Below are positions 1-23,571 of a DNA stretch of 48,006 nt, piece by piece. The stretch is from Nitrospirota bacterium (GTDB lineage Bacteria > Nitrospirota > Nitrospiria > JACQBZ01). How positions within the stretch are numbered: position 1 is the first letter of the stretch; each line of letters begins with the position of its first letter. Below the pieces are notes generated by a model. That model was given only the letters and a program-made list of their open reading frames with translations, made no database searches and was not told the origin of the DNA. The translations under genes were made by a program, and so were the position numbers. The stretch is taken from contig JACQBZ010000078.1 in assembly GCA_016194285.1 (NCBI GenBank), positions 1 to 48,006 on the forward strand, given 5' to 3'.

Positions 1-861
1 ATTCGTGGTTAATCGGCGCGTCCCGGTCCCGTCCGCATTGGCCCGATAGATCTCCCAGTTTCCGTCCCGCCGCGACGTGTAGAGAATCTGCCGTCCGTCC
101 GGAGACCAGGCCGGCCCCTCCGCCGGGGCATCGGCATGGCTCAGGTTCTCCTGATGACTTCCGTCCGCATTCATTCGGTATACCTGATACGTCCCGTCGC
201 GATTGGAGTCGAACAGGATCGACCGGCCGTCGGGAGACCACTCGTTCCAACAGAAGCCGTCCATCGCCGGATCATGTGTCAGGCGCTGCTCCCGCGTCCC
301 GTCGGCCGTCATGACATAGACCTCCCAGTTCCCGTCCTTATTGCTGACATAGGATAGGGATTGACCGTCGGGCGACCAGGCCGGATTGATGCTGTCCCCC
401 TTCGCCGTCCGCGTCAGCCGGCGCTGTTGCGATCCATCGGATGCGATCGTATACAGCTCCCAGTGACCGGTCCGCTCGGACGCAAAGACGATTCGGGAGC
501 CGTCCGGCGCCCATTCCGGATCGTCCGCTTCGGCCTGGTCGAACGTCAACCGAAGTCCGTTGGCCCCGTCCCGGTCCATGACATACACTTCGTCGTTTCC
601 GTCCCGACTCGAGATAAACGCCAATTTTGTCCCGTCCGGAGACCAAGACAGGCTTCGCCCCTCCAGGGGAGGCGAGGTCAGGCGATAAGCCTTCGAATCG
701 TCAACCGAGGTCCAAAAAAGCTCCCAGTGCCCTTGGGGCCCCGGCCGATCCAGTGTGTGACGTCCCTCCACCGGTTCGCCTGCGGTCCAACCGCTGCAGC
801 CGCCCAGGATGCCGAAGGCCACAATCCCGAACCCGATGAGTCTGTTTTTCCGATTGTCCAT
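1..861 (-). CDS. TolB-like PD40 beta-propeller lipoprotein (partial, runs off left edge)
   Basis: The reading frame opens at ATG 861 and stays open to base 1, so 287 N-terminal residues are present and the C-terminus is missing. The N-terminus has a short basic stretch, a hydrophobic core and a lipobox (LGGC, Cys22), so the mature protein is probably a membrane-anchored lipoprotein. Five WSPDG-type PD40 repeats follow (SWSPDG, EWAPDG, AWSPDG, EWSPDG, AWSPDG), each ending in a SxRDG turn and a WEVY/WEIY strand, as in TolB C-terminal propellers. It starts 24 bases after the YCF48-like gene and is the last gene seen of the long array. PD40 propellers usually bind proteins or glycans; no enzymatic residues are evident. 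A true Tol-Pal TolB is unlikely because no tolA, tolR or pal lies nearby and the paralogues are tandem. Confidence 0.85.
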   Translation of the reverse strand, partial: MDNRKNRLIGFGIVAFGILGGCSGWTAGEPVEGRHTLDRPGPQGHWELFWTSVDDSKAYRLTSPPLEGRSLSWSPDGTKLAFISSRDGNDEVYVMDRDGANGLRLTFDQAEADDPEWAPDGSRIVFASERTGHWELYTIASDGSQQRRLTRTAKGDSINPAWSPDGQSLSYVSNKDGNWEVYVMTADGTREQRLTHDPAMDGFCWNEWSPDGRSILFDSNRDGTYQVYRMNADGSHQENLSHADAPAEGPAWSPDGRQILYTSRRDGNWEIYRANADGTGTRRLTTN

Positions 862-885
862 CTGGATCGCTTCCCGATCTCCCCG

Positions 886-2787
886 TCAAAATCCGGCGGC
901 CTTCGGCGCCAGCCAATGGGTTCCGCCGTCTTGAGTGTAGCGGATCAGTCCGCCGGTTCCCACCGCCGCGCCGTGTTCAGCATCCGAGAAATAAACGCTG
1001 TAAAAATCATTCGTGGTACCGGACGGCTGAAACCGCCATCGCTTTCCGCCGTCCTCGGTCGCCAAAATAACGCCTTTATCTCCCACGATCCAGCCGTGTC
1101 GTGCGTCCGGAAAATAGACATCACCCAACTTCTCCGTCGTGCTCACGGTTTCCCGTTTCCACATCGTCCCGCCGTCTACGGTATGAAGAACGACGCCGTC
1201 GCTCCCGACCGTCCACCCGTTCAGCGGATCCACAAAATAAATATCCCCGAGCCATTTGCCGTCGGGAGCCCGTTGCGTCCGCCAAGTCTTCCCGCCATCC
1301 TCGGTCGTCAGGATGACTCCCCCGCGACCCACCGCCCAGATTCGGAGACGATCCTGAACAAAGAGTCCATCCAGCCAATCCGTCGTCCCGCCCTCCTGCC
1401 TCTCCCAGGTCTCGCCCCCGTTCCGCGTATTGAGAATGAGTCCATTTCGCCCCACCGCCCAGCCGAATTGAGCCGGAGGGCTACCGACCGGCGGACCATT
1501 GGGCGAACCTACAAACTGGACATCGTAAATCCAATCTTCCCTCGTCCCGCTGGTCTGGGGAAGCCAGTGTCGGCCCCCGTCGGTCGTGTGCCAGATCGCG
1601 CCGAAACCGCCCACCACCCAACCGTTTTGAGCATCGGTGAAATCGACACCGCACAACCACCGCATGGTCTCGATCGGCTGGGCCGTCCACCGCGCCCCGC
1701 CATCCGTGGTATGCAGGATCACACCGCTGTCCCCGACCGCCCAACCGTTCTGAGCGTCCGCGAAGTGGACTCCGCACAACCAGGCCTTGACCTCCCGGCT
1801 CTGCGCGATCCAGGTCTCGCCCCCATTCGCGGTATGTCGAATCGTCCCGCCGCGGCCGACCGTCCACCCGTTCTGCGGATCGGTAAAAAATACACCGAGC
1901 CAATTGGCCTGGCCTCCGGACTGGGATTCCCATCGCTTCCCGCCGTCCGCGGTGTGGAGCACCGTTCCCGCCACGCCGACGGCCCAACCGTTCCGCTCGT
2001 CAAGAAAATGGACGCAATACAGAGAACGGGTGGTTCCACTGTTCTGGCGTCTCCATTCATGGCCTCCGTCCAGGGTCGAGAGAACGACCCCGTCCTTGCC
2101 GACGGCCCACCCTTGCCGCTCATTGAGGAAGAAGACCTCATAGAGCCAGTAGCCTTCCGGCAGGATCTGATTCTCCCAGGTTTCTCCTCCATCCCGGGTG
2201 TGGAGAATCAATCCGTCTCTTCCGACGATCCAGCCCCGATCCGCATTCACGAAGGAAACACTGTACAGATAGCTTTGTGTGCCGCTCGCCTGGGGGCGCC
2301 AGTGTTCCCCTCCGTCTTCGGTATGGAGAATCGTCCCATCCCGTCCGACGACCCATCCCCGCTTGGAATCCACAAACCGGAGGCTGAAGAGATGGGCCGA
2401 CGTTCCGGCATGCTGCGGCCTCCAGCGATTTCCTCCATCGAGCGTTTTCAGGATCGTTCCGTTGTCTCCGATCACCCATCCCATCAAGGGATCCAGGAAC
2501 TGCACGCCCCCCAAGCCGTTCGGGCTGCCGCTGACCTGCGCCGCCCAGTTTTCGCCCCCGTCCTCGGTGTGGAGGATCAACCCTCCCTTGCCGACAATCC
2601 AGCCCTCGTGAGGGTTGAGAAAAAAGACCCGGTCCAGATCCTCCTGCGGCCAGAGAGCAGTCACCGCCGTCCCCCGCCACAAGCCGCAGGCCGTGACGAA
2701 CGCCCCGAAACAGATCATGCTGACAAAGAACACGACAAACCGGACACCGCCGGTCGTCCCGGCGGGAACCCCGATGTATCTTCTCAT
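886..2787 (-). CDS. YCF48-like multi-repeat beta-propeller lipoprotein
   Basis: A 633-residue protein with a signal sequence and lipobox (VTAC, Cys34). It then carries 14 tandem units of the form GWxVGxxGxILxTxDGG followed by W three residues later. This is the signature of the YCF48/HCF136 and BNR-like propeller family, which in photosystem II binds assembly intermediates. Fourteen repeats fit two seven-bladed propellers; that fold is inference. The start overlaps the stop of the upstream PD40 lipoprotein by four bases (ATGA), indicating translational coupling. The last repeat is degenerate (GAAVG), as expected for closing strands. No photosynthesis genes are present, so the role is probably scaffold or ligand binding at the cell envelope near the cytochrome system. 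Confidence 0.88.
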   Translation of the reverse strand: MRRYIGVPAGTTGGVRFVVFFVSMICFGAFVTACGLWRGTAVTALWPQEDLDRVFFLNPHEGWIVGKGGLILHTEDGGENWAAQVSGSPNGLGGVQFLDPLMGWVIGDNGTILKTLDGGNRWRPQHAGTSAHLFSLRFVDSKRGWVVGRDGTILHTEDGGEHWRPQASGTQSYLYSVSFVNADRGWIVGRDGLILHTRDGGETWENQILPEGYWLYEVFFLNERQGWAVGKDGVVLSTLDGGHEWRRQNSGTTRSLYCVHFLDERNGWAVGVAGTVLHTADGGKRWESQSGGQANWLGVFFTDPQNGWTVGRGGTIRHTANGGETWIAQSREVKAWLCGVHFADAQNGWAVGDSGVILHTTDGGARWTAQPIETMRWLCGVDFTDAQNGWVVGGFGAIWHTTDGGRHWLPQTSGTREDWIYDVQFVGSPNGPPVGSPPAQFGWAVGRNGLILNTRNGGETWERQEGGTTDWLDGLFVQDRLRIWAVGRGGVILTTEDGGKTWRTQRAPDGKWLGDIYFVDPLNGWTVGSDGVVLHTVDGGTMWKRETVSTTEKLGDVYFPDARHGWIVGDKGVILATEDGGKRWRFQPSGTTNDFYSVYFSDAEHGAAVGTGGLIRYTQDGGTHWLAPKAAGF

Positions 2788-3767
2788 TTCATTTGCTGAG
2801 CCACCTGCAACACGGCAATCTCTCCATGCCCCTCCTCATTCACACGGGTAAATGCCAGATCCCGGCCGTCCGGGCTCCAGGAAAGATAAAGAAAGCTCAG
2901 GCCGTCGAACACCTGTTTGTCCACATTATATTTGAGCTCGCGCGTTCCCAGGACACCCTTACCGATTCGCCGCTCGTGGGTCCCATCGCGGTCCATGATC
3001 CAGATATCCCGATGCCCGCTCCGCTCCGAAACAAAGGCGATCCGGGTGCCGTCCGGGCTCCAGGCCGGGAGAAAGTCCCGACGGGTATCGGTCTTCTGGG
3101 TGAGTTGTTTGATGGTGCGGTCCTGGGTATCAATCAACCAGATATCGCTCTTGCCGCGCATCGAGGAAACCGCGGCCACCGATCGCGCGTCCGGGCTCCA
3201 GGCCGATACCCAATCGCCGCAACGAATATTCGGCATCCCCTGGACATTCCCGCCGTCCGCATCCATGACCCAGACGAGCACGTCCATCGATCGCGACGAA
3301 ACGAAGGCGATGCGCTTCCCATCCGGACTCCAGACCGGCGCGATATCCAGTCCGTTATACTGAGTCAGCTGACGGTTGTCCGTCCCGTCGAGTTTCATGC
3401 TCCAGATATCCCAATTGCCGCCGTGATCGGACGCATAGGCCAGCCGGGTCCCGTCCGGGCTCCATGACGGAAAGCGTTCGTTGCTCGAATCATGCGTGAT
3501 TTGTTTGAGCCCCGTCCCGTCCCGGTCGATCGTCCAGATATCCCAATTCCCGGCCAGATCGCTTTCGAACGCCAACGACTTTCCGTCTGGGCTCCAGACC
3601 GGATGGACCGCGTTGGCCGGTAACGCGCGGATGGGCATCACGGTCACATTGTTCCCGGCACAGCCCGCAACTAAAAGTTGAAAGGTTAAAAAAGCAAGAA
3701 AGGTTGAAAGGATTTTCCCCCTTTTACCCTTCGACCTTTTGGACCTTTCAACCTCAAAACCTTGCAT
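2784..3767 (-). CDS. TolB-like PD40 beta-propeller lipoprotein
   Basis: A 327-residue lipoprotein. A very basic N-region is followed by a hydrophobic stretch and lipobox VAGC (Cys36). Six or so PD40 blades follow (WSPDG motifs with NWDIW, RDIWIMD strands), one of them degenerate (AWSPDA). The DNA coding the first 35 residues is an imperfect inverted array of AAGGTT/AACCTT-like octamers, shared with three other genes here. ATG at 3767 lies just upstream of that array. Its stop overlaps the next gene's start by ATGA. Expected location is the periplasmic face of a membrane, and no enzymatic motif is seen. A binding or scaffolding role is inferred from the fold only. Confidence 0.85.
   Translation of the reverse strand: MQGFEVERSKRSKGKRGKILSTFLAFLTFQLLVAGCAGNNVTVMPIRALPANAVHPVWSPDGKSLAFESDLAGNWDIWTIDRDGTGLKQITHDSSNERFPSWSPDGTRLAYASDHGGNWDIWSMKLDGTDNRQLTQYNGLDIAPVWSPDGKRIAFVSSRSMDVLVWVMDADGGNVQGMPNIRCGDWVSAWSPDARSVAAVSSMRGKSDIWLIDTQDRTIKQLTQKTDTRRDFLPAWSPDGTRIAFVSERSGHRDIWIMDRDGTHERRIGKGVLGTRELKYNVDKQVFDGLSFLYLSWSPDGRDLAFTRVNEEGHGEIAVLQVAQQMK
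3673..3760. repeat. Inverted octamer array in signal-peptide coding DNA (copy 1)
   Basis: Repeated AAGGTTGA/TCAACCTT-like octamers form two arms. They include a perfect 11-base inverted repeat (3701-3711 with 3744-3754). The arms encode the basic n-region and the hydrophobic h-region of the lipoprotein signal peptide. Related arrays lie at the starts of three more genes (near 8.9, 9.75 and 10.6 kb). Confidence 0.75.
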
Positions 3768-3797
3768 TGCATCCTCCTCTCAACCCCTCATCCATTT

Positions 3798-4829
3798 CTA
3801 CGGTTGCCATCGGGGCGCGCTGACCTCACCGCGGTTGAAGGTCAATCGCTTCAAATGGTCCCCATTGGGATCCATGATATAAGCCTCCTCCGCGCCGTCC
3901 CGGTTGGAGACAAAGGCGATCTGTTTCCCGTCCGGCGACCAGACCGGCTGGGCGTCGACGGCCGGATTCCGCGAGAGGTTCTTCACACCGGAACCGTCCC
4001 GGTTCATCACATAAATCTCGTTGTTGCCGTCCCGCGTTGTCGTGAAGACAATCCGTTGTCCGTCCGGGCTCCAGACCTGCATCCCCATCTGTTCATCGGA
4101 CTTCGTCCGCGTGACATTGCGCGGCTTCGAACCATCGGCATTCATCACGTAGATCTCCCAGTTTCCATCCCGGTTCATATCGCGGTCCGTTCCCCAGGCG
4201 ATCAAGGCCCCGTCCGGAGACCAGGAATGGAATCCCCGCCCGTCTTCCGCGGGATTCTGGGTCAGATTGACCGGATGCTCCCCATCGGCATCCATGAGAT
4301 AGATTTCATAGTTGTCGTCCCGTCGCGACACAAAGGCGATCTTGGTGCCGTCCGGCGACCAGTCGGGGCTGTAGTCCCGCGCTTCATTCCGCGTCAGCCG
4401 TCGGACCTGGCCCCCGTCCGCCGCCATGGAATAGATTTCTTGATTCCCGTCTCGATCCGAGACAAAAGCCACCCGCCTTCCATCGGGAGACCAGGCCGGG
4501 TTGTAGTCCTGACCGCCGTTCCGCGTCAGGTTGATCGGGTGTGAACCGTCGGCATCCATTCCATAGATCTCTTTGTTTCCATCCCGTTCCGAAACAAAAA
4601 CAATCTTCGTCCCGTCCGGCGACCACGCGGGGGCGCGGTTGTCGGCCTGCCCATGGGTCAGGCGCGTCACGCCCGTGCCGTCCGTATTCATCGTGTAGAT
4701 CTCCCAATGGCCGTTTTCCTTCGACTCGTAAACAATCTTTTTCTGTCCGGCCATCCCCGGGGTTGAAAGAAGCAACAGCACGGCGCCGGCGGCCCACGCC
4801 GCGCCACCGGTTTTTAAAATTGACTTCAT
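3798..4829 (-). CDS. Secreted TolB-like PD40 beta-propeller protein
   Basis: ATG 4829 is chosen because AAAGGAG lies 8-9 bases upstream and a clean Sec signal peptide (hydrophobic core, GMA cleavage near residue 27) follows at once. The frame also opens further upstream at 4880, but that would add an unlikely glycine-rich leader. The mature 316 residues form a propeller with six full WSPDG blades (AWSPDG, DWSPDG, SWSPDG, VWSPDG and similar) and split first/last strands, KIVYES at the start and PRWQP at the end. It has no lipobox, so it is a free periplasmic or exported protein, unlike its lipoprotein paralogues. Family knowledge supports a binding function; the ligand is unknown. Confidence 0.85.
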   Translation of the reverse strand: MKSILKTGGAAWAAGAVLLLLSTPGMAGQKKIVYESKENGHWEIYTMNTDGTGVTRLTHGQADNRAPAWSPDGTKIVFVSERDGNKEIYGMDADGSHPINLTRNGGQDYNPAWSPDGRRVAFVSDRDGNQEIYSMAADGGQVRRLTRNEARDYSPDWSPDGTKIAFVSRRDDNYEIYLMDADGEHPVNLTQNPAEDGRGFHSWSPDGALIAWGTDRDMNRDGNWEIYVMNADGSKPRNVTRTKSDEQMGMQVWSPDGQRIVFTTTRDGNNEIYVMNRDGSGVKNLSRNPAVDAQPVWSPDGKQIAFVSNRDGAEEAYIMDPNGDHLKRLTFNRGEVSAPRWQP

Positions 4830-4867
4830 CACCTGGACTCCTTTTGTTAAGGGGCTCACGTCGCCCC

Positions 4868-4938
4868 CTCCACCGGCCAAGCCGGATGGAGCCTCCCCTT
4901 CTCGCTCGCTGTGCTCGCTGAGAATCTATCCAATAGAT
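4868..4938. other. Pair of small hairpins between two propeller genes
   Basis: The 116-base gap between the YVTN/PD40 gene and the next propeller gene holds two inverted repeats. One is 4868-4891 (CTCCACCGGC, loop CAA, GCCGG-A-TGGAG with one bulge). The other is 4924-4938 (ATCTAT, CCA, ATAGAT). No T-tract follows on the minus strand, so a factor-independent terminator is not supported. RNA processing or mRNA stability elements are possible. Confidence 0.4.
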
Positions 4939-4945
4939 ATCAGTT

Positions 4946-6985
4946 TCACGGTTGCCAGCGAGGATAATCTTCCCTCGTCCGCGTAAACGTCAATTGCACT
5001 TGATGCCGGCCATCGGTATCCATGACGTAGATTTCGTCATGCCCGGTCCGATTCGAGACAAACGCCACTTTTTTGCCATCCGGAGACCATAGGGGCACGT
5101 CATCCATCGCCGGATTTCTCGATAGATTCAAGGAACCGGTCCCGTCCGCATTGACGAGATAAACCTCTTCGTTACCGTCCCGCGTCGAGATGAAGGCGAT
5201 CTGCCGGTTGTCCGGCGACCAGACAAACATGCCGATTCCCTCCTCGGCCGGACTGCGGGTCACATTCACGGGCTTGGACCCGTCCGCATTCATGACATAG
5301 ATTTCCCAGTTTCCGTCCCGGTTGGTGACCCATGCGATCTTGGAGCCGTCCGGAGACCAGGAATGACTTCCTCGACCGTCTTCGGCCGAGTTCTTCGTCA
5401 GGTTTTCCTGATCCGTTCCATCAATGTTCATCCGGTAGATCTCATTGTTCCGGTCGCGGTTCGAAACAAACGCCACCTTCCGGCTGTCGGGAGACCAGTT
5501 GGGGTTCCAGTTATCGCCGGCCGCAGTCAAACGGGTCTGACGTCCCCCCTCCGGGTCCATCCGGTAGATCTCCCGGTGGCCGTCACGCTTCGAAACATAG
5601 GTGATCCATTGACCGTTCGGCGACCAGGAGGGACTGAAGTCATCCCCCGCGCTGCGGGTGAGGTTGCGCTGCTCCGACCCGTCGGCATTCATCAGGTAGA
5701 CCTCTTTATTGCCATCCCGGTCCGAAACGAAAAGGATTTTTCGGCCGTCGGGCGACCAAAAGGGGGCCCGATTCTCGGCCGTCGTAAAGGTCAGACGAAT
5801 CTGACGCGTCCCATCGGCCTCCATCAGATAGATCTCCCAGTTCCCGGACCGCCGGGATTCAAAGACGATCTTGGGGTCCCGATCGGGTTGAGGCGATTGA
5901 GCGTGCGGAGATTCCGTGACCGCGCCCAGCGCCACGGTCGATATCACCTTGTAGTGGGAGGCGTCGATGATCGAAACGGTCGAGGACCCTTGATTAACGA
6001 CGTAAACCGTCCGACCATCCGGTGAAACGGTGATGTCCCACGGATCCTTCCCCACCGTTATCTTCTTAACAACCCTCTCGCTTGCCGTATCGAGGACCGA
6101 GATCTCCTGCGCGTCGCGGTGCGCGATGTAAAGATAGCGGCCGTCCGGCGATAGGGCCAATCCGCCGGGATAGCTCCCGACCCTCACCATGTTCCGGATT
6201 TGGTTCGTTCGCGCATCCAAAATCGCAATCTCACCGCTGTCCTCAATCGCCGCGTAGACCACTTTCCCGTCCGGCGCCATCACGATGTCTCTCGGCCCCC
6301 GAAGGACTTCTTCGCCGTCCGGAAGGATGACGGTCCGGGCCGCATCCGAACTCGGATCTTTCAAGTTCAAACGGGCCGTGACGGCCCCGGTCGATGTATC
6401 CACCACGCGGATCGAATAGAAATCGGTCACGTAGACGGATTTTCCATCCGGGGCAATCGCCACATTCTGAGGCCCTATGCCCATCGGAATCCTTTTTTTG
6501 ACGGTGCGGCTGGCCAGGTCCACGACGGACAGGCTGTCGCCGGACTCATTGGCCACGAAGATCGTCTTGCCGTCCGGAGAGACGGCCATCCCGCCCGGAT
6601 CCATGTAACGGCCCTTTTCATCTTTCAACGAAATTTTGGCTCGGATGGTATTGGAATGGGTGTCCACAACGGCAATCGCGTCCGCCTCACCCAAGGCCAC
6701 ATAGAAATCCCGACCATCCTGAGTGATGAAGCCGCCGCAGGGGGGAGAGTCCACCGCCACCTTGCGGACCTGCGTCGGGTCGCTCCGATCAATGATGTAG
6801 AAGTGGCGGAGGCCTTTTAACGTCACGTAAAGTTGGGTCGGACCGTAGATAATCCGGCTCGCCGTGTGTTTTGCTAAAACAGGGGCTGGATACGAGATGA
6901 AGGATGCGAGTGTGAAAAGCACAACAGCGCACAATGAGAGAATCCGCCGGCACCCTGATCGACGTTCCTCACCGGCATCCGGCAT
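4946..6985 (-). CDS. Two-propeller fusion: YVTN-type N-terminal and PD40 C-terminal propeller, secreted
   Basis: ATG 6985 is preferred because AAAGGA lies 6 bases upstream. An alternative ATG at 7006 overlaps the upstream stop as ATGA. The 679-residue product has a Sec signal peptide (cleavage near residue 38, PVLA). Residues about 40-360 form a YVTN/YncE-like surface-layer propeller (repeats with VSPDGKTIFVAN, IAPDGKSVYVTD, LSPDGRYLYIAH, VSPDGRTVYVVN). After a Pro/Gln-rich linker, residues about 372-679 form a TolB-type PD40 propeller ending in PRWQP, very like the neighbouring free-standing gene. YVTN propellers occur in archaeal S-layer proteins and cytochrome-associated proteins. The architecture suggests gene fusion after duplication of the PD40 unit. 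Function is probably binding or surface display. Confidence 0.85.
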   Translation of the reverse strand: MPDAGEERRSGCRRILSLCAVVLFTLASFISYPAPVLAKHTASRIIYGPTQLYVTLKGLRHFYIIDRSDPTQVRKVAVDSPPCGGFITQDGRDFYVALGEADAIAVVDTHSNTIRAKISLKDEKGRYMDPGGMAVSPDGKTIFVANESGDSLSVVDLASRTVKKRIPMGIGPQNVAIAPDGKSVYVTDFYSIRVVDTSTGAVTARLNLKDPSSDAARTVILPDGEEVLRGPRDIVMAPDGKVVYAAIEDSGEIAILDARTNQIRNMVRVGSYPGGLALSPDGRYLYIAHRDAQEISVLDTASERVVKKITVGKDPWDITVSPDGRTVYVVNQGSSTVSIIDASHYKVISTVALGAVTESPHAQSPQPDRDPKIVFESRRSGNWEIYLMEADGTRQIRLTFTTAENRAPFWSPDGRKILFVSDRDGNKEVYLMNADGSEQRNLTRSAGDDFSPSWSPNGQWITYVSKRDGHREIYRMDPEGGRQTRLTAAGDNWNPNWSPDSRKVAFVSNRDRNNEIYRMNIDGTDQENLTKNSAEDGRGSHSWSPDGSKIAWVTNRDGNWEIYVMNADGSKPVNVTRSPAEEGIGMFVWSPDNRQIAFISTRDGNEEVYLVNADGTGSLNLSRNPAMDDVPLWSPDGKKVAFVSNRTGHDEIYVMDTDGRHQVQLTFTRTREDYPRWQP

Positions 6986-7002
6986 CTTGCATCCTTTCCC
7001 CG

Positions 7003-8034
7003 TCATTTTGCCCACGAGACCCATTTTTCCTCCGCATGGCGATGCGTCAGTCGGCGCGGGTGCGATCCGTCCCGATTCATCACTTCGATCTCCGAAACCT
7101 TGTCTTGGGACGAAGTAAATGCGATTCGCCCCCCGTCCGGCGACCAGACCGGCCAGAAATGATCCGCCGCCCCGGCCGTCAACGGTGTAGACTCCGAGCC
7201 GTCCGACCGCATTCGGTAAATCTGCTCCTGCCCGCTTCGGTCCGACACAAATAGAAGATTGCGGCCGTCAGGCGACCAGACCGGTCCATCATCCGCGGCC
7301 GGATGGTTCGTCAGGTTGCGCGCTCCGGACCCATCCGAGGCCATCACATAGACCTCGATGTTTTGATCCCGTTCGGATACGAATGCGATTCGTCTCCCAT
7401 CCGGCGACCAAAGGTGAGTATCCAGGCCGTCGTTCGCCGGACTGTATGTCAACCGTGTCGGCATGGATCCGTCAGACTCCATGACATAAATCTCGGGATT
7501 TCCGTCCCGGGTCGACACAAACAAGATCTTCTTTCCATCCGGTGACCAGACCGGGATGGCATCCATCGCCGAGTTGAAGGTCAATCGCCGCTCGCGGGGG
7601 GAAGCGGGCAGGACTGCGGTCCCAATTTCCACCGTATAGATCTCCTCGTTTCCATCGCGCAACGACGTAAACGCGATCCGCGTCCCGTCCGGAGACCAGT
7701 CCGGATCCTCTTCATCGGCCGGCGTGTAGGTCAGCCGGGTCTGGCCTGTGCCATCGGCCCTCATCACGTACAGCTCCTTATTCCCGTCGCGGGTCGAAAC
7801 GAAGGCGATCCGCGTCCCGTCCGGAGATCCGACCGGCCAGATATCATCTCCACGACTTTGCGTCAGTCGTTCTTCTTTTCCGGTCGCCAGGTCCATGCGA
7901 TAAACTTCCCAATTCCCGTCTCGATTGGAGCTATAAACAAGCCGCCCGTCATACTCGCCGCGTTGCGCGTTGGGCTGCATGACCGTACAGCCCGCCAGGA
8001 TCAAACTGGTAAAAACGATCGGCCATGGAGTCAC
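7003..8034 (-). CDS. TolB-like PD40 beta-propeller lipoprotein (GTG start)
   Basis: A 343-residue lipoprotein with a very short signal peptide and lipobox LAGC (Cys16). GTG 8034 is the first usable start, since an in-frame TGA lies two codons upstream. About seven PD40 blades are visible (DWSPDG, VWSPDG, LWSPDG and others). One blade has Gly in place of the conserved Trp (VGSPDG). The C-terminus (WVSWAK) supplies the closing strand. Its stop sits within the start region of the downstream two-propeller gene, consistent with coupled translation. It follows the third FGE-fold gene by 38 bases. Role inferred: envelope-anchored binding module. Confidence 0.85.
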   Translation of the reverse strand: MTPWPIVFTSLILAGCTVMQPNAQRGEYDGRLVYSSNRDGNWEVYRMDLATGKEERLTQSRGDDIWPVGSPDGTRIAFVSTRDGNKELYVMRADGTGQTRLTYTPADEEDPDWSPDGTRIAFTSLRDGNEEIYTVEIGTAVLPASPRERRLTFNSAMDAIPVWSPDGKKILFVSTRDGNPEIYVMESDGSMPTRLTYSPANDGLDTHLWSPDGRRIAFVSERDQNIEVYVMASDGSGARNLTNHPAADDGPVWSPDGRNLLFVSDRSGQEQIYRMRSDGSESTPLTAGAADHFWPVWSPDGGRIAFTSSQDKVSEIEVMNRDGSHPRRLTHRHAEEKWVSWAK

Positions 8035-8072
8035 GGCTCAACGCTTCGAACTCTCAACCGTTCCATTCTCTC

Positions 8073-8993
8073 TTAATCCTTGGCGCATCGGAACCCGTAC
8101 GTATAATCCGAATGCCACCCGTCCTTCTCCCGGGGGCCGACCGTCGGAAGAACCGCCAATCGCGCCGCGGTTCTCGAAAAAGCGGCCTCGGTCAAATAGG
8201 ATCCCCCGCGGATGATCTTAAAGCTTCCGGATTCTTTCACCGTCCTCAGCGGGTTTCCGGGATAAGACCGATAGGCCGTGGCCGTCCATTCCCTCACGTT
8301 GCCGGCCATGTCATACACCCCGTACGGGCTGACATCCTCCGGGTGACTGCCGACCGGCGCTTTCCAGCCCGGAACCTGGTAGTGTTCTTGGCCCGCAGGC
8401 GCCTTCCAGGCCGCGCTGCTCTCCAAGGTGTTCGTGCGGCCGGCCTCAAACCGATCGCCCCACGGCCAGAGACGCCCGTCCGTCCCCCGCGCGGCCTTCT
8501 CCCATTCGGCCTCCGTCGGAAGACGCCGGCCGACCCATTGACAGTAACGAACCGCATCAAACCAGTCGACGTCCGAGACGGGATAGTTGTCATACCCCTC
8601 CGGGAAATGATCCGCCCGACCGGCTTCCTTCCAGTAACCCGGATACTTCTTTGAGCCCGTCGCATTCAAAAATTGAAGGTACTGGGCCTCCGTGACTTCA
8701 TAACGGTCGATGGTGAACGCCCGGACATAGACCTTCTGCTGCGGAAGTTCATCCACCCCGATCTCAAAACCGATCTTCCCGTCTTGTTCGGTGCTGCCCA
8801 TCAGAAACCAACCGGCCGGCACATTGACCATATCGGTTGTCGGTTGTGCGTTGTGCGTTGTGAGTGGCATGGAAGCACACCCAAACAAAAGTGGAAAGGT
8901 TAAAACAAAGGTTAAAAGATAAAAAGGTTGCAAGGGTGAAAGTTTTTGTTCTACCACCTTTGTACTTTTCAACTTTTGAACCTTTGAACTCAT
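8073..8993 (-). CDS. FGE/SUMF1-fold lipoprotein without catalytic cysteine pair
   Basis: ATG 8993 overlaps the upstream stop by ATGA and has AAGGA six bases ahead. The 306-residue product has a basic n-region, hydrophobic core and lipobox LFGC (Cys39). It then carries a complete FGE-sulfatase domain (about 58-306): MVNVPAGWFLMG, IDRYEVT, RRLPTEAEWEKAARG, DMAGNVREW, IIRGGSY and terminal GFRCAKD. Authentic formylglycine-generating enzymes need two active-site cysteines shortly before the final GFRC motif. Here that stretch has none, so sulfatase activation is not expected. The related EgtB/PvdO non-heme iron proteins use this fold differently. Probably a lipid-anchored accessory protein of the cytochrome locus. 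Confidence 0.88.
   Translation of the reverse strand: MSSKVQKLKSTKVVEQKLSPLQPFYLLTFVLTFPLLFGCASMPLTTHNAQPTTDMVNVPAGWFLMGSTEQDGKIGFEIGVDELPQQKVYVRAFTIDRYEVTEAQYLQFLNATGSKKYPGYWKEAGRADHFPEGYDNYPVSDVDWFDAVRYCQWVGRRLPTEAEWEKAARGTDGRLWPWGDRFEAGRTNTLESSAAWKAPAGQEHYQVPGWKAPVGSHPEDVSPYGVYDMAGNVREWTATAYRSYPGNPLRTVKESGSFKIIRGGSYLTEAAFSRTAARLAVLPTVGPREKDGWHSDYTYGFRCAKD
8889..8988. repeat. Inverted octamer array in signal-peptide coding DNA (copy 2)
   Basis: AAAGGTTC-like units on the 5' side of the gene (minus strand) and AACCTTT-like units on the 3' side occupy codons about 2-35 of the lipoprotein. They encode the KVQKLK n-region and the LLTF...LTF h-region. Same pattern as at 3.7, 9.75 and 10.6 kb. 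Confidence 0.7.
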
Positions 8994-9799
8994 TTTATGT
9001 CCTTCGCGCACCGGAAACCGAAATCCGGCTGGGCCAATTCGGCCAGGCGGAAATGTCGGTGGGCCGGTCGTGCAAAGGGGTTGGCCGGCATGCCCCACGA
9101 CCCCCCCCGCAGGATGCGAAATTTCTTGTCCGGAGCAATGGTCTTGGGAGCCCCCGGATAGGATTGAAAAATGGAGGAGGTCCATTCCATCGCGTTTCCG
9201 GCCATGTCCTGCACGCCGTATGGGCTTGCGCCATCGGGAAAACTCCCGACGGGTGTCGTCCAGTTCCGCTTCGAGTCTTCCGTATTAAGCCGTTTAAGCT
9301 CCAATTGGTTGCCCCAGGGCCAAAGACGCCCGTCCGTCCCCCGCGCGGCCTTCTCCCATTCTTCTTCGGTCGGAAGGCGCTTGCCTGCCCAGCGACAGTA
9401 AGCCTCGGCGTCATTAAAATTCACATCAATCACGGGATGATTGTCTTCCGGCGCCGGGTACCCGAATTCTTTATAGTCCTTCCAGATCGACGGCGGTTCA
9501 TGTCCGGTTGCGGTCACAAACTTCCGATACGGACCGATCGTGACCTCATATCGATCCATCCAGAACGCCGGAACGGATGCCTTGTGTTTGGGAATGGAAT
9601 CCATGCCCACCTCGAACCCGATCTTACCGTCGTTGGAATCACTGCCCATCACGAACTCCCCGCCGGAAACCAGCACCATGTCATCCGGCCCAACGGCCTT
9701 TGCGGCTGAAAGGTTGAAGGGTTGAAGGGTTAGCAAGGTTAATAAGAGAAACGGCCTTCCAACCCTCCAACACTTGAACCTTTGAACCTTTAAACTCAT
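8990..9799 (-). CDS. Secreted FGE/SUMF1-fold protein without catalytic cysteine pair
   Basis: ATG 9799 forms an ATGA overlap with the preceding gene's stop. A further ATG six codons upstream is possible but unnecessary. The 269-residue product has a Sec signal peptide (core FLLLTLLTL, cleavage around residues 33-35) and no lipobox. The FGE-sulfatase domain begins at DDMVLVSGGEFVMG and contains MDRYEVT, KRLPTEEEWEKAARG, DMAGNAMEW, ILRGGSW and GFRCAKD. The segment between RGGSW and GFRC has no cysteine, so it lacks the copper-binding Cys pair of true formylglycine-generating enzymes. It is the second of three adjacent, clearly related copies, all linked by four-base overlaps. Confidence 0.88.
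   Translation of the reverse strand: MSLKVQRFKCWRVGRPFLLLTLLTLQPFNLSAAKAVGPDDMVLVSGGEFVMGSDSNDGKIGFEVGMDSIPKHKASVPAFWMDRYEVTIGPYRKFVTATGHEPPSIWKDYKEFGYPAPEDNHPVIDVNFNDAEAYCRWAGKRLPTEEEWEKAARGTDGRLWPWGNQLELKRLNTEDSKRNWTTPVGSFPDGASPYGVQDMAGNAMEWTSSIFQSYPGAPKTIAPDKKFRILRGGSWGMPANPFARPAHRHFRLAELAQPDFGFRCAKDIK
9704..9794. repeat. Inverted octamer array in signal-peptide coding DNA (copy 3, clearest)
   Basis: On the minus strand two AAAGGTTC units occur directly after the start codon. Further on are AACCCTTC, AACCCTTC, AACCTTTC in tandem, a strict 8-base period. The two arms are roughly complementary. They encode KVQRFK and then LTLQPFNL of the signal peptide. Confidence 0.8.
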
Positions 9800-10662
9800 T
9801 TTACGTCCATCGTGCACCGGAAACCGATCGACCGATGTCGCTTTTCAGGTTCACGGGCCATGCTGCGGCTGGCCGACCGGGCATAGGGCTCGCCCGGCAA
9901 GGTATAGGCGCCGCCTTTGACGACCCTGGTTTTCCCGAACGCGCCCCGAACGAGCTTGCTTCCCGGATAGGCCTGATACCAGTCGGCCGTCCATTCGGCG
10001 ACATTTCCGGCCATGTCGTAAACACCGTACGGACTGACGCCCTTTGGGAAACTTCCGACCGGCAAGGTCCCCCCGGTTTTATATTCTTGAACATTGGCCT
10101 TTTGGGGGTCAAAGATATTTCCCCAGGGCCAGATTCGCCCGTCCGTCCCCCGCGCGGCTTTCTCCCATTCGGCCTCCGTCGGCAGCCGTTTTCCGGCCCA
10201 TTCGCAATACGCCTCCGCATCCTCCCATGATACATAAATAACCGGATGGTTTTCAAACTCTTTTGGAACGCCGCCCTCCCGGGCCCAGGGATAAATCTCC
10301 GGAAACCGTGGATCGCCTGGAGGCTTTCTCCCCGTCGCTTCGATGAACTTGCGGTATTGCTTCGCCGTCACCTCATACCGGTCGATATAGTACTCCTTCA
10401 GCTTTACCGTATGCTGCGGCAGTTCATCCACCCCCACGGTAAAACCGACCCGCCCGTCTTTCGGCAAGCTGCCCATTAAAAACTTCCCGGGCGGGATCAG
10501 GACCATGTCGTCCAGTGCAACCGCCCACGTCGTTGCAAGGGTGAAAGGTTGCAAGGTTAGAAAGGTCAGGAAGGCGAATAAACCTTTGAACCTTTTGCGC
10601 CTTTGCACATTTGCACCTTGCAACTTTACCCGCTCGTTCCCGGGTTTCTCCCCCCCGCGCAC
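9796..10662 (-). CDS. Secreted FGE/SUMF1-fold protein without catalytic cysteine pair (GTG start)
   Basis: The longest start is GTG 10662. A TTG at 10623, just after the stop of an adjacent cytochrome remnant, is an alternative that would match the compact starts of its two paralogues. The product (288 residues from GTG) has a basic leader, a hydrophobic core (LFAFLTFLTL) and a likely cleavage near residue 47. The FGE domain starts at DDMVLIPPGKFLMG and includes IDRYEVT, KRLPTEAEWEKAARG, DMAGNVAEW, VVKGGAY and GFRCTMD. It has no cysteine pair before GFRC, so formylglycine formation is not predicted. First of three FGE-fold genes in transcription order, directly behind the cytochrome remnant. 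Confidence 0.85.
   Translation of the reverse strand: MRGGEKPGNERVKLQGANVQRRKRFKGLFAFLTFLTLQPFTLATTWAVALDDMVLIPPGKFLMGSLPKDGRVGFTVGVDELPQHTVKLKEYYIDRYEVTAKQYRKFIEATGRKPPGDPRFPEIYPWAREGGVPKEFENHPVIYVSWEDAEAYCEWAGKRLPTEAEWEKAARGTDGRIWPWGNIFDPQKANVQEYKTGGTLPVGSFPKGVSPYGVYDMAGNVAEWTADWYQAYPGSKLVRGAFGKTRVVKGGAYTLPGEPYARSASRSMAREPEKRHRSIGFRCTMDVK
10531..10626. repeat. Inverted octamer array in signal-peptide coding DNA (copy 4)
   Basis: Minus-strand units GCAAATGT, GCAAAGGC, GCAAAAGG and AAAGGTTT (8-base period) face AACCTTGC, AACCTTTC, ACCCTTGC units. They encode the basic and hydrophobic halves of the signal peptide of the first FGE-fold protein. Confidence 0.75.
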
Positions 10663-10748
10663 CAGCGAGCATTCGGCGTACCGGTGCTCGTGGCCTGATA
10701 GGCACAGGAGTCCATCACCTCATTATGGCAATGGAGATAACAAATCTC
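10626..10748 (-). pseudogene. C-terminal remnant of a multiheme cytochrome
   Basis: The minus strand encodes about 40 codons ending in TAA (10626-10628). They closely match the last residues of the large cytochrome at 12796: C-YLH-CHNEVMDSC, then SSTGTP-like and RWCAGGRNPGTSG. An in-frame TAA lies immediately upstream (10749-10751), so only the tail survives. The nucleotide match to the intact gene is clear but diverged and follows codon positions, so this is an old paralogue rather than a recent target-site duplication. The unusual CX3CH heme-like motif is kept in both copies. The 3' end overlaps the start of the following FGE-fold gene in another frame. Confidence 0.75.
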
Positions 10749-10805
10749 TTAGTCCCTAAGATGTACCAACCTCCAGTAGTGCACTATGGAGATTTTACCC
10801 AGGAT

Positions 10806-11264
10806 TTACCCACCGATAATCACCTCCGGTAGAGGATTTCCATGTGCATCAAAAGAGCCAACAAAGTTATCATCGAATATTTGGATTAAATCTTCTTGTG
10901 TGGTCATCTGAGAACCGATAATCGTTTCTGGTAAGGGATCTCCATTATAGTCCACCCTTTCTGTCCAATTCTCGTCAAATGTCTGTATATCAACCTCCCC
11001 AGCTGCAACATTCATTGGCATTTCTGGGACTGAAGGATCAGCACTGTTTTGAACATTACCGCTGTGAGACTCAACAGTTGTTCCCAAAAAAGCCAGGTGG
11101 TCTTGCAGTTTATCTTCATTTGCTTTGAGGTTATCCTTGTTTGCGTTGACAAATATATCTTCTCCGCTTCCCTCAACCCTACCGCACCCATTTAGTTGTA
11201 CAACGAGATATGAAGATAAGGTCAGTGTCAAGAATAAGGAGAAAAAAGTGACCTTCAGCTTCAT
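10806..11264 (-). CDS. Small putative lipoprotein with two C-terminal repeats, unknown function
   Basis: ATG 11264 follows a good ribosome site (GGAGG, 6-7 bases ahead). The 152-residue product has a signal peptide and lipobox LNGC (Cys27), then a hydrophilic, Asn/Asp/Glu-rich segment. Two copies of a 23-residue repeat follow (about 95-117 and 129-151). Each has F-D-[ED]-N near the start, an aromatic/acidic turn, and G[DN]PLPE then IIG at the end. I do not recognise a family. The DNA is AT-richer than the flanking cytochrome and FGE genes, as is the upstream FG-GAP gene, so the pair probably arrived together by transfer. The C-terminus ends inside the second repeat, so it may be a complete short protein or a truncated longer repeat protein. 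Confidence 0.75.
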   Translation of the reverse strand: MKLKVTFFSLFLTLTLSSYLVVQLNGCGRVEGSGEDIFVNANKDNLKANEDKLQDHLAFLGTTVESHSGNVQNSADPSVPEMPMNVAAGEVDIQTFDENWTERVDYNGDPLPETIIGSQMTTQEDLIQIFDDNFVGSFDAHGNPLPEVIIGG

Positions 11265-11310
11265 AATTCAGTCCTCCAAACTGGTTGTCTGTTGTGTTTT
11301 GATCACTTTT

Positions 11311-12597
11311 CTATTTTGCACCCGATACAGAAATACCAAGGCCATCTGCCGCAGCGACTCCATTGAATTGATATTTGAGCCCCCAGATGAATTGGGCGGG
11401 GGTTATGTAGACATAGGCACTCCCCGCACCAAGCCGCCCACCAGGAGATGCAGAAGGAGCACCCACAATCACTGCTGGCGTATTGCTTGTTGTGACACCC
11501 CCTGCACCAGAAACAGACCAGCCGAAATAATTATAAGAAGCACCTCCATCAATTCTGACATTTTGTGTTCCGTCCAAGCCACTATAGATATAAGCGGCTC
11601 CCGCATTCGTTTTTCCAGGAGGGTCGAAATATGGAGCCCCTATAATATAATCCGAGCAGGAGGAATAATCCACATTTCCAGCGCTTGACACGGAATGTCC
11701 AAAGTGGTCGTATGCAACGACTCCAGAATGCGTGCGGATAAGATTACCCGTCGCTCCATTGTAAATATAGGCCATTCCGTTGTCGGTCGCCCCTTCATAT
11801 TCCGCTCCTACAATGATGTCGGCCTTCCCATCACAGGTAAAGTCACCAGCGGAAACAGACTGAGCACCACTTTCGCCACCGGTGTCGATTTTATAAAGTG
11901 CTACTCCCGAAGCACCGGAATAGACAATGACATCGTATATGCCACAGGATCCACAAGGGTTTCCCACAATTATGTCCGCCTTTCCATCACCATTGACATC
12001 TCCTGCAGCAACGGGGCCGAATTGTTCACCGGAAGGGGGAGCAAAGGTGTAGAGTAGTGCCCCTGTTGCCCCGGAAAATACATACACACGACCACCTGTA
12101 AGGCTAAAACCACCCGTAACAATCAAATCGCTCCTGCCATCACCATCCACATCCCCCGCAGTGACATAAGATCCAAGTCCATCATTAGCGGCAGAGCCAT
12201 TAAATCGGTAAAGAAGCGCCCCTGTTGCCCCGGAATAAACAAAGACACTCCCTGCATTGGAATGTCCGCTAGGATCGGCATTAGGAGCACCGACGATCAG
12301 GTCTCCCCTTCCGTCGCCGTTCACGTCCCCTGCCATAGCAACAGAATAACCCAACCAATCCCCTGCAACACTACCATTGAATGTGTAAAGCAGGGCTCCG
12401 TTTGATCCGGAGTAAACATATGCACTACCTGCATCGGTTCGGCTGCTTGGATTTGCTAAATAGGCCCCGACTATTACATCCGCTATACCATCGCCGTTCA
12501 CATCGGTTATGAATACGGCCGCTGCTTCTGAAACTAAAAACCAGTTAATCACGAAAAAGAAAAATAAGACTACTCGAGCATTGAAATGTTTACCCAT
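11311..12597 (-). CDS. FG-GAP (integrin-alpha-like) beta-propeller, secreted
   Basis: ATG 12597 is chosen over the upstream frame opening because AAGGAGGTG lies seven bases ahead. The 428-residue product begins with a strong hydrophobic signal peptide (FFFFVINWF, cleavage after EAAA near residue 26). Seven FG-GAP repeats follow, five with calcium-loop-like DxNGDGxxD (DVNGDGIAD, DVNGDGRGD, DVDGDGRSD, DVNGDGKAD, DFTCDGKAD) and two degenerate. Seven repeats match the seven-bladed integrin alpha propeller. Each blade pairs AGSAYVYSG with LLYTFNG-like strands. Base composition is AT-richer than its neighbours and the gene interrupts an otherwise cytochrome-to-FGE arrangement, suggesting acquisition. 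Likely a calcium-stabilised extracellular binding protein. Confidence 0.88.
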   Translation of the reverse strand: MGKHFNARVVLFFFFVINWFLVSEAAAVFITDVNGDGIADVIVGAYLANPSSRTDAGSAYVYSGSNGALLYTFNGSVAGDWLGYSVAMAGDVNGDGRGDLIVGAPNADPSGHSNAGSVFVYSGATGALLYRFNGSAANDGLGSYVTAGDVDGDGRSDLIVTGGFSLTGGRVYVFSGATGALLYTFAPPSGEQFGPVAAGDVNGDGKADIIVGNPCGSCGIYDVIVYSGASGVALYKIDTGGESGAQSVSAGDFTCDGKADIIVGAEYEGATDNGMAYIYNGATGNLIRTHSGVVAYDHFGHSVSSAGNVDYSSCSDYIIGAPYFDPPGKTNAGAAYIYSGLDGTQNVRIDGGASYNYFGWSVSGAGGVTTSNTPAVIVGAPSASPGGRLGAGSAYVYITPAQFIWGLKYQFNGVAAADGLGISVSGAK

Positions 12598-12632
12598 AAC
12601 ACACCTCCTTCGTTTTGTCTGCACTCCGTCTA

Positions 12633-12795: not shown

Positions 12796-15700
12796 TTACC
12801 CGCTGGTTCCCGGATTCCTACCCCCTGCGCACCATCTCGCCCGAGGAGTGCCGGTGCTGCTGTCCTGATATTCGCAGGAATCCATGACTTCATTATGGCA
12901 GCGCAGATAGCATCGGAACCCGGAACCGTCATAGAACCACATCGGCTTCTGGGCCGTGGTCCCTTCCACGGTCGGGCCGAAATTGATGAGGTGCGTTCCC
13001 CTCACGCCGTCCACGATTCCGTCCACACTGTCATCCGCCAGCCCTACACCGTGACCATCACCGTAGATGGTATTGAGCGCTTCGATGTTCGAATGAACAT
13101 TATAATGGCATTCATGACACATCGCGCCGCTCCACCGCAGATGGTACATATGAAGGTTTCCGTTCCACCACGAGTCGACGCCGGCGGAAGAAGGAGCCAG
13201 ACCAAAGAACCGGGTCAGGCTGCGGTCTTTGTCGCCCAGCGTGGACTGCCCAAAATAGGTCGTCGTCACGTCCGGATCGAAAGCGGCGCGATCATGGCAC
13301 TGGAAGCAGAGCAAGAACTTTTGAAAGTGACTGTTGTTCGAACCTTTTCCACCGCCAGCGATGCCGTGGCCGGCACCAGCCCCCCCCGTACCAGGCCCAT
13401 TGTACCCGTCCCCATCGGTGCAGCCCGGGGGATCTTGCTGCTCAAAACATCTCCCGGGGGCCAGAATGTTTGTATCGTAATTGGCCCGCAAGAGGCGACG
13501 ATGAATCGAGCCGTGGGGCCCGATGGGTTGGCCCGGCCGTCCGGTGACATACGGAACATCGTTATTCAACGCGGGCCAGATGTCGGTCGGCCGCAGATTA
13601 GACTCCGTTAAGGGACCCAAGAAACCCGGGGTCACTGGAGCATCGTTCAACGTATTATCGTACGCGTCGTATTTATTGTTGTTGTGGCAGTCCGTGCATT
13701 GGATCGTCAGGTTGGACAGCGCGTTGCTCGCGACCCCCGCGGAAGGAAGTGTATCGCTTCCCGTCTGACACCCGGTGATATCAAAGGCCGCCGCCAATTG
13801 TTTACACAACTGCGGGGAGCCGTTCCGACCCGGCATCACGACGGGATGATAGGCCGGATTCTTGGTTTGCTGTGTGTGCGAAAAGACCAACGTCCCGTAG
13901 CGAGCCAGGTCCACGCTGATCATCTCGGGCGTATCCAGATCTTTAGACAGGGGGTTGAACTCGCGCCATTTGTTGCTGAAACCTTTAAAGCTGAATTGAT
14001 CGCCCGTCGTGCCGTTGGTCGGATCCGAACGGGAAGAAAAAGGGATTGAAACATAGCTCGCGTAATTGGGGGGTACGGATAAGATCGCGACATCGTCCGG
14101 ATATCGGTATTGTCTTCCCGAAACCGGCCCGAAGAGATTGGTATAACTGTTGCCGTGGCACCGGAAACAAACCTCATACACATAGGGATCCCGATTGGCC
14201 GATGTCCCGTTAATCGTCGTATCGGTCCCGCAGATCACGAAGCCGGGTTCGCACCGACCCACCGCGATGGGATGAGTCCCTAAGATGTCAATCCCGATAC
14301 CCTTCATTCCTTTTAAGCGCCCACCCTCTCCATTGGCGTTGGGCGGATTTGCATTCGGCGCGCCGTTATAGGACAAGGCGGCAAAGTTGGGACTGTTCAC
14401 CTGATGCGGGTTGTGGCAGTCTACGCATTCCACGTGCGCCACGTCCGGCGTGCTGATGCCGGGCGTCTCTTCATTGATGACAGGGGCCATCGCCAATCCT
14501 TCGCTCATAAGCTGCACCCCTTCCTGAGACCGGGAAATGAAAACCGGTTCATGTCCACCGGCCAATTGAAGACACATCGCGCTCCCCGTACCGCTGCCGC
14601 CTGCGCAGATTGAGCTGTCCTTGTTGAACTCGGAAAAAATATCCGGCGCGATACGCGCGGCCCCGGCGACAAACCTCAGATTGGCGCCGGTCGTCGGATC
14701 CCCGGCCGGCAAAAGATTCGGAATAATCGAATTCACGCCCGTTCCATTGGGCGAATGGCAAAGAAAGCAGGTGTTTTCGACTGCATCGCTTCCCCCGAAG
14801 GTCGTTACTCCCTCTCGATGAAGTCGCTTGGCCCCCTGGGCCGTGTGCGGATCGTGACAGTTGCGGCAGGCATAGGCTCCCACCGTATGCGTCGTGTCGC
14901 CGTCAAAATCGTAGGGGTTCGTGGAGTCGGGATAAGGCGCATGCACCGCTGTGCTCACGGAATGGGTGCTGGGGCTCCAACCCGGTTTGCTATGGCAATA
15001 CAGACAGATGATCTGTCCGGTCGCTGGGGTTGGCCCGCCCCCGTTATTGGGAAGGAATCCCGACTCGCTCGCATCCTGGAAGCGCGGGGCTCGAAGGAAT
15101 TTGGGATAGGTGACGGCATGGGGATTGTGACAGGAGGTGCATTGAACGTTTTCAAACGTCGAGGGCACCGCCGTGCTTCCGTATCGCTTCACACCGGTCT
15201 TGTACCCCCCGGCCGGAGCCAGAGGGGTCACATCGTTGATTCCTGCCGGAGTCGCACCGGGATCCACCAGCTCGGTATCCGTTACCGTGGCCAAGTTGGT
15301 ATCGAACCGAAACGAGATTGGATGGTCATTTTGAAGGTTTGTTCCCAGATACCGGGTGTCGCCGGTTAACTCGGGGTTCGAACCGCCGCCCGTTCCCAGA
15401 GGCATTTGACCGCCCGGTTGGACACCGCTCATGCCGATGGCCGTCCCCAAATAGCCGCCCGATTCGGGCTTGTTCACCACGCTCCCGATCGCGATCGTGC
15501 CGTCGTGACAGGACAGACAGAGCCGAGAATAACCGGTGGGTTTGTTTGGGTCATTCAGCGTCCCTTCAAATGAAAAGCTCCAGGTATTGTCATAAAGGAT
15601 ATAGGACTGTGTATTCTGATAGTCGATGTTGCGGTTCCAGAGCGGCGCTTTCAATGCGGTCGCCGTGGCATTGGAACCATGGGGGGTGTGGCAAAAGACG

Positions 15701-15930: not shown

Positions 15931-15986
15931 CTCGCTTCCTTTCTCTCCTGCGTCCACCGATCTGCGAGGGTGAACGGACGACCTCG

Positions 15987-18967: not shown

Positions 18968-19124
18968 CCTTGTCTCTATCCATTGATGACACTTCCCTAA
19001 TAACGCGGATCGGAACCAGCGGTCAAAACAACCCTTGACTCCCCTTTGCATCAATGGCCCCGCGCCCCGAGGAAGGATCTATCCTGAAAAATGGATCCTC
19101 AGAATCAATCGACGAAATACCGAA

Positions 19125-20168: not shown

Positions 20169-20172
20169 ATAT

Positions 20173-20213
20173 AAAAAACAGGATGCCTCACCCCCGGACA
20201 GCGGGAAGCATCC
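20173..20213 (-). terminator. Terminator/attenuator-like hairpin just upstream of the PpiC gene
   Basis: On the minus strand GGATGC (20213-20208) pairs with GCATCC (20186-20181). An inner CCCGC/GGGGG-type pairing strengthens the stem, and TG plus TTTTTT follow (20178-20173). The T-tract ends four bases before the PpiC start codon. The geometry matches an intrinsic terminator with possible read-through. Confidence 0.5.
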
Positions 20214-20242
20214 AAGAAATGAACCTCTTAATTTCGGTCTGT

Positions 20243-20265
20243 AGGGGCGGGATGATCCCGCCCCT
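20243..20265. repeat. Perfect 23-base palindrome (REP-like)
   Basis: Two 11-base arms, AGGGGCGGGAT and ATCCCGCCCCT, flank a single G. It lies 14 bases after the tetraheme cytochrome stop. No T-tract follows, so it looks like a repetitive extragenic palindrome or an mRNA-end stabiliser rather than a terminator. Confidence 0.6.
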
Positions 20266-20279
20266 AACATCATACTCGG

Positions 20280-21311: not shown

Positions 21312-21354
21312 CGTTCTATACTCCTTTCTATGTTCTGGAACATTGGGCCTCAAG

Positions 21355-23560: not shown

Positions 23561-23571
23561 GGTTCCATCCG

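Follow-up and report, generated by a model that had tools for sequence, protein, structure and literature searches.

The cytochrome operon analyzed here is, by its gene content, a Uet-type (undecaheme electron transfer) porin-cytochrome locus, and behind its UetJ gene stand an FGE-fold gene, which is a regular companion in the Nitrospirota version of the locus, and a PD40/YVTN/YCF48 propeller block, which is specific to one family (f1) but fixed there. We tentatively propose, at somewhat short of an even chance, that the propeller and FGE-fold products form an exported scaffold or contact layer working with the Uet conduit. The conduit itself has already been published; neither the Nitrospirota FGE partner nor the array of ~22 propeller genes turned up in the papers searched, and that literature yielded no paper on FGE or propeller arrays joined with multiheme loci.

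The window is the whole of a 48,006-bp contig (C86) from the source genome (G000), a 2.31-Mb draft of 102 contigs that is 88.6% complete. Its named relatives within f1 are groundwater 'Nitrospirae' MAGs, Ca. Manganitrophus belongs to a neighbouring family (f9), and UetJ is present in 27 of the 270 genomes of the class. Domains were called with Pfam, with E-values given per gene, and the genome-wide propeller census was a Pfam search of the assembly. Lipoboxes were called by pattern; the lipoproteins are thus predicted ones, which may be sorted to the outer or to the inner membrane.

A Uet-type conduit operon with an extra heme motif in UetJ

The conduit operon is encoded by the following genes, listed from its upstream end:

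24608..25672, minus strand: REGP, Reg_prop propeller lipoprotein, upstream end of the locus (PF07494, 1.6e-19; lipobox ITAC)
23572..24372, minus strand: MHC5, pentaheme cytochrome (5 CXXCH; Paired_CXXCH, 3e-11)
22502..23596, minus strand: NHL1, NHL propeller lipoprotein, UetH/I-type (PF01436, 2.6e-31; lipobox ATGC)
21355..22479, minus strand: tetraheme OmcE-like cytochrome, UetA-type (4 CXXCH; OmcE 7tfs_A, 2.6e-15)
20280..21464, minus strand: second tetraheme cytochrome, UetA-type paralogue (4 CXXCH; Paired_CXXCH, 6e-7)
19125..20273, minus strand: PPIC-type peptidyl-prolyl isomerase, UetB-type (PF00639, 2.4e-16)
17102..19054, minus strand: outer-membrane beta-barrel, UetC-type (AF2 model, 30 strands, pLDDT 85.8)
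15987..17105, minus strand: NHL2, NHL propeller lipoprotein (PF01436, 1.4e-38; lipobox LTSC)
12796..16095, minus strand: UetJ-type multiheme cytochrome (11 CX2CH + 1 CX3CH)

The Uet-type assignment rests on this gene content together with loci in Gallionella/Chromatiales that the UetJ alignment retrieved. For Gallionella and Tenderiales the Uet gene set comprises UetJ, UetA, UetB, UetC, UetHI and UetDEG (PMC10734462), and the window shares with the Uet loci of Ca. Tenderia and Gallionella a tetraheme UetA, the PPIase UetB, the barrel UetC, two NHL proteins and a UetJ with 11 CXXCH motifs. It differs from them in having no triheme UetDEG, an extra CX3CH in UetJ, a pentaheme gene, and the appended FGE genes and propeller array (PMC10734462). 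Because no gene for the periplasmic triheme UetDEG cytochromes lies in the window operon, we call the locus Uet-type rather than a complete Uet cluster; in f8 and f9, two triheme genes adjoin the operon on the opposite strand. REGP is kept near the operon in f1, f5, f8 and f9.

All 14 UetJ orthologues aligned carry the 11 CX2CH motifs and the single CX3CH, making 12 hemes possible, and the invariance of this CX3CH near the C-terminus suggests that it binds a twelfth heme. Among the UetJ homologues listed, CX3CH is present in those of Myxococcota, Deltaproteobacteria and Nitrospinota and absent from those of Alpha-, Beta- and Gammaproteobacteria. The pentaheme MHC5 matched the structures 9yuq_N (3e-21) and OmcE (7tfs_A, 9e-21), and the best Foldseek match of the barrel model was chain B of the Mtr complex (6r2q_B, E 1e-8), with a TM of only 0.35. 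With their OmcE homology and four CXXCH motifs, the UetA-type tetrahemes match the tetraheme UetA and are putatively extracellular as it is. Their alignment with the OmcE filament protein (7TFS) covers the region of heme motifs one and two, and all four hemes are retained; they are longer than OmcE, and they would be candidates for polymerisation into filaments.

Porin-dodecaheme PCC complexes have been described for Ca. Manganitrophus and the Manganitrophaceae (PMC9040806), and by that description they resemble the window in joining a barrel to a (potentially) 12-heme cytochrome. The Ca. Manganitrophus genomes examined (f9) share the window's core plus FGE, and no PD40 array was found in them. 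PCC3 of He et al. 2017 was ruled out as a counterpart, as its cytochromes (median 34 and 21 hemes) and inner-membrane partner are unlike the window.

Flanking the locus at its REGP end, a divergent plus-strand cluster at 25788-46306 reads by eye like a polysaccharide/O-antigen locus, with a UbiA-like transferase, an ABC exporter ATPase, sugar-nucleotide enzymes, and glycosyl- and methyltransferases.

FGE-fold proteins without catalytic cysteines follow UetJ

Three FGE-fold genes lie downstream of UetJ in the window:

9796..10662, minus strand: FGE1, exported FGE-fold protein (PF03781, 3e-60; no FGE cysteine pair)
8990..9817, minus strand: FGE2 (PF03781, 5.5e-59; no catalytic Cys)
8073..9185, minus strand: FGE3, probable lipoprotein (PLLFGC, by eye; PF03781, 3e-54)

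The original prediction had called these proteins inactive, and for FGE activity this holds, with no cysteine at the catalytic segment of any of the three. Across 19 sequences (the three window proteins and all 16 relatives), the segment matching Cys336/Cys341 of human FGE contains no Cys; with this pair missing, the three are not formylglycine-generating enzymes, and a role as active FGEs modifying sulfatases was ruled out. They share with FGE/SUMF1 the full FGE-sulfatase domain and a conserved structural Cys pair (C153 and C283 of FGE1 are invariant and align with the 'AYC' and 'FRC' cysteines of human FGE), whereas the catalytic cysteines are absent from all of these copies.

A different active site is one alternative, under which the FGE-fold proteins would be residual or alternative enzymes modifying UetJ or the propellers, for example by oxidation or cross-linking. 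The fold does also serve EgtB-type sulfoxide synthases and PvdO, both of which are among the PDB matches of FGE1, and the AlphaFold model of FGE1 (mean pLDDT 63.5) was too poor to inspect for another site. We nonetheless consider such enzymes very improbable here, given that the FGE cysteine pair is gone from 19/19 sequences and that the related fold in PorK/GldK is a component of a secretion machine and not a known modifying enzyme. PorK/GldK of the type IX secretion system are likewise exported FGE-fold proteins without an FGE role (similarity 4e-13); no other T9SS components were seen in the locus.

The position of the FGE gene is strikingly regular. FGE stands directly behind UetJ in f1, f3, f6, f7, f8 and f9 wherever the contig continues, and in f5 a giant FN3-repeat protein and a small one come between the two; across the class, the number of these catalytically dead FGE-fold proteins after UetJ is one to three. 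In the named set of loci from GTDB genomes, FGE came after UetJ in 20 of the 22 Nitrospirota loci and lay within 6 kb behind UetJ in only 1 of 43 non-Nitrospirota loci (that of Motiliproteus, where there are four FGE genes); on nearly identical counts (20/22 vs 1/46), Fisher's test gave 6e-14, a value that ignores shared ancestry. The other FGE genes examined in the source genome (on C45, C10, C15, C75 and C25) lie away from the UetJ locus. Nine Gammaproteobacterial loci instead have a YVTN propeller protein directly after UetJ, and in the f3 and f6 genomes Vps10 or FG-GAP propellers come after the FGEs. The slot behind UetJ has thus been taken repeatedly, and by different routes, by FGE-fold or propeller proteins (FGE in Nitrospirota, YVTN in Gammaproteobacteria), and the recurrence of YVTN, Vps10 and FG-GAP there shows that the same position recurrently carries propellers.

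Some of these loci have peculiarities of their own. The four FGE-fold genes of Motiliproteus (Gammaproteobacteria, L134) lie 1-5 kb behind UetJ in an apparently independent association, and the Gammaproteobacterial loci L109, L110, L113, L114, L124 and L137 carry tandem UetJ-YVTN units in two copies, with a propeller of ~730 aa. In the complete genome of Ca. Manganitrophus GAC4 (L093/L045, CP114561), both UetJ and the FGE behind it are broken into two ORFs, through frameshifts or assembly errors. Giant FN3-repeat exported proteins (1519-3030 aa) are inserted beside UetJ in f5 and in G003, and their partner is a small protein of 166-214 aa (L053:5755-14847, L065:4445-12754, L040:3370-16304).

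A secondary insertion between UetJ and FGE1

The source genome departs from the UetJ-FGE adjacency solely through an insertion of two genes, next to which a fragment of UetJ remains:

11311..12624, minus strand: FG-GAP propeller protein, secondary insertion (PF01839, 1e-39)
10806..11264, minus strand: 152-aa ORF inserted with FG-GAP (no Pfam match)
10626..10742, minus strand: relic of a UetJ 3′ end, where UetJ once met FGE1 (translates to ...CHNEVMDSCAYQATSTGTPNARWCAGGRNPGTSG, then stop)

FG-GAP had been counted as part of the block, a membership that we reject: it is an insertion in the source genome that is absent at the locus in other f1 genomes, the insert has a GC of 0.47 against 0.57 in its flanks, orthologues of FG-GAP and the 152-aa ORF sit together elsewhere in G005 (C61:39501-41275), and the UetJ relic adjoins it. 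This relic is 84% identical to the UetJ end of the same-genus relative G002 and 77% identical to the intact UetJ of its own genome (12796-12912). Its place between insert and FGE1 shows that the original junction was UetJ-FGE1, as in the relatives, and that the FG-GAP/152-aa insertion came with recombination at UetJ. Since the GTG at 10662 that opens the longest FGE1 frame reads the relic out of frame, the true FGE1 start codon is probably further in, inside that frame.

A propeller array that runs beyond the window

The propeller genes behind the FGEs extend to the end of the contig:

7003..8034, minus strand: PD40d, PD40 propeller lipoprotein (PF07676, 2.5e-70; lipobox LAGC)
4946..7024, minus strand: YVTN/lactonase (Lactonase/YNCE) + PD40 double propeller (PF10282, 2.8e-24; PF07676, 8e-65)
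3798..4880, minus strand: PD40c, PD40 propeller (PF07676, 6e-65; Sec signal)
2784..3767, minus strand: PD40b, PD40 propeller lipoprotein (PF07676, 3e-51; lipobox VAGC)
886..2787, minus strand: YCF48-like propeller lipoprotein (PF14870, 1.6e-88; lipobox VTAC)
1..861, minus strand: PD40a, PD40 propeller lipoprotein, cut by the contig end (PF07676, 1.3e-44; lipobox LGGC)

Seven propeller genes and three FGE genes had been read from 1-12597, and Pfam confirmed every domain so named; nearly all of their products had been described as exported, and all seven propeller and three FGE genes have a predicted signal or lipobox N-terminus. The description of many ATGA overlaps in this stretch was overstated, as 2784-2787 is the only exact 4-bp overlap and the remaining block junctions are longer overlaps or gaps of at most 65 bp, with +143 and +171 around the insertion. 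By eye, the YCF48-like protein has 14 Asp-box hairpins. Short repeats with an 8-nt period (CCTTTGAAC-like) mark the 5′ end of PD40b and of each FGE gene (3720-3768, 8941-8997, 9755-9795 and 10584-10624), where they are translated into the pre-signal region.

The block is cut at the end of C86, and the rest of the array of the source genome lies on contig C63. The first ORF of C63 matches, at 93.5% identity, the C-terminal part of the G002 gene that follows PD40a, from which the C86-C63 gap is put at ~0.85 kb. It is followed by two YncE/YVTN genes, seven PD40 genes (one of 613 aa), YncE and BNR, and further along by a 1184-aa lipoprotein without Pfam match, two YVTN genes and a Vps10-like protein. 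Among the matches listed, the PD40 stretches of the source genome are all on C86 or C63 except one, a single PD40 locus on C30 (438-aa frame) that is likelier to be TolB.

In G002 the locus is contiguous, with ~33 genes on one strand over ~45 kb, starting with Reg_prop at C35:81163 and closing with a Vps10/YCF48-like gene whose end is near C35:36118, with polA next; its largest gap is 277 bp and many genes overlap. The order of the array genes is the same in G003, in G005 and on C63 of the source genome, with extra NHL-type genes at the distal end in G003. The f1 array thus amounts to ~22 propeller genes (PD40, YVTN/YncE, YCF48/Vps10, BNR) behind the FGEs. Within the 24 array genes that have an intact 5′ end, 14 encode a strict lipobox (~17 by eye) and the remainder Sec signals. 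No CXXCH occurs in any array propeller, and propellers and FGEs, having no heme motifs, are not themselves wires.

Orthologues of YCF48 were found in 7/7 f1 genomes, at 75-86% identity in the six others, and on the UetJ-FGE contig in 5/5 f1 genomes (the source genome included) where the contig permits the test; class members outside f1 have far weaker repeat matches. A lack of the block next to cytochrome loci in relatives had been named as grounds for refutation, and this check came out in favour of the earlier reading, with PD40-YVTN-YCF48 following the FGEs in every f1 genome where contigs permit. This conservation behind UetJ-FGE ties the block to an electron-transfer locus, identifiable as Uet-type. 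Of the earlier reading of an apparatus coupled to electron transfer, the tie to an electron-transfer locus therefore stands; FG-GAP drops out, and the propellers are a lineage-specific accessory and not core. Reading the DNA downstream of UetJ in genomes outside f1 showed the full array in none of them and a few propeller genes in some, and so Uet works without it.

Selection, recombination and the case for an unrelated gene set

For every array gene, G002 has a single clear orthologue by position, and dN/dS against G002 was 0.09-0.29 for array genes and 0.07-0.23 for core genes, so that purifying selection on the array matches that on the cytochromes in strength. One-to-one orthologues and these dN/dS values indicate that the array genes are maintained and functional, and a chance pile-up of propeller genes was ruled out by clustering, conserved order and dN/dS. 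Many array genes (C63 of the source genome, L205, compared with G002 and G003) have a lower dS than core and cytochrome genes, and c63_YVTN1 scores 82% to the copy in G003, of another genus, against 61% to the copy in same-genus G002. Together, the lower dS and the c63_YVTN1 pattern make recombination of array genes between lineages likely, as expected of surface proteins, which leaves room for an independent function, and some of the array may undergo recombination or transfer separately from the conduit.

These dS differences and the c63_YVTN1 identities hint at a separate history, as would be expected if the array were unrelated to electron transfer and simply a lipoprotein set (for polymer binding, adhesion, glycan handling or signalling) lying behind the Uet operon or under the same promoter. 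The restriction of the full array to f1 among the UetJ families, and the polysaccharide-type cluster that flanks the locus opposite the array, would also suit this explanation. We judge it unlikely, because the position behind UetJ-FGE is kept in three genera with tight spacing, because an operon scan for internal promoters and terminators gave no clear signal (9 promoter-like hits vs 8.4 by chance, 23 terminator-like vs 17.8, counts at or slightly above chance that are not informative in themselves), and because propellers recur behind UetJ in unrelated bacteria.

Assembly factors or a contact layer

The main rival holds that the FGE and propeller proteins are periplasmic or outer-membrane factors that assemble the Uet conduit together with its cytochrome filaments, and would thus belong to biogenesis and not to the working machine. 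YCF48 acts in photosystem II assembly and BamB in barrel assembly, and PPIases and other propellers act likewise elsewhere. In the window, the operon already encodes a SurA-type PPIase, and the YCF48 family takes its name from an assembly factor, though the likeness of the window protein to that factor is one of repeat homology only; NHL propellers and a PPIase also accompany Uet in published loci (PMC10734462). Against this reading, most Uet loci are without the array and presumably still assemble, ~22 dedicated chaperones for about nine client genes would be unusual, and the distal array genes vary between genera, more as surface proteins do than chaperones. On balance we regard an assembly role as rather unlikely.

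On the scaffold or contact-layer reading, an accessory module would have grown on the 3′ end of the Uet-type conduit operon. UetA-J, FGE and array genes would be co-transcribed, and the lipid-anchored propellers and FGE domains would reside in the outer envelope and bind one another as well as the barrel/UetJ conduit and partners outside the cell, be these mineral, matrix or other cells, such that the scaffold would hold the conduit or its cytochrome filaments to an electron source or sink. A bolder form of this proposal, which we consider doubtful, is an undescribed surface organelle, a modular 'contact plate' in which ~20 propeller lipoproteins and dead FGE domains would dock a Uet conduit and its cytochrome filaments onto partner cells or mineral surfaces.

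Few partners are known for Uet, an electron-uptake pathway that was described only recently. To it we add a regular Nitrospirota companion, the dead FGE after UetJ, and, for a single family, a run of exported propeller genes on one strand that is exceptional in its length. A UetJ with CX3CH followed by FGE provides a marker for Nitrospirota Uet loci in metagenomes, and, if the array is tied to the conduit, the physical coupling of electron conduits to solid substrates would become testable.
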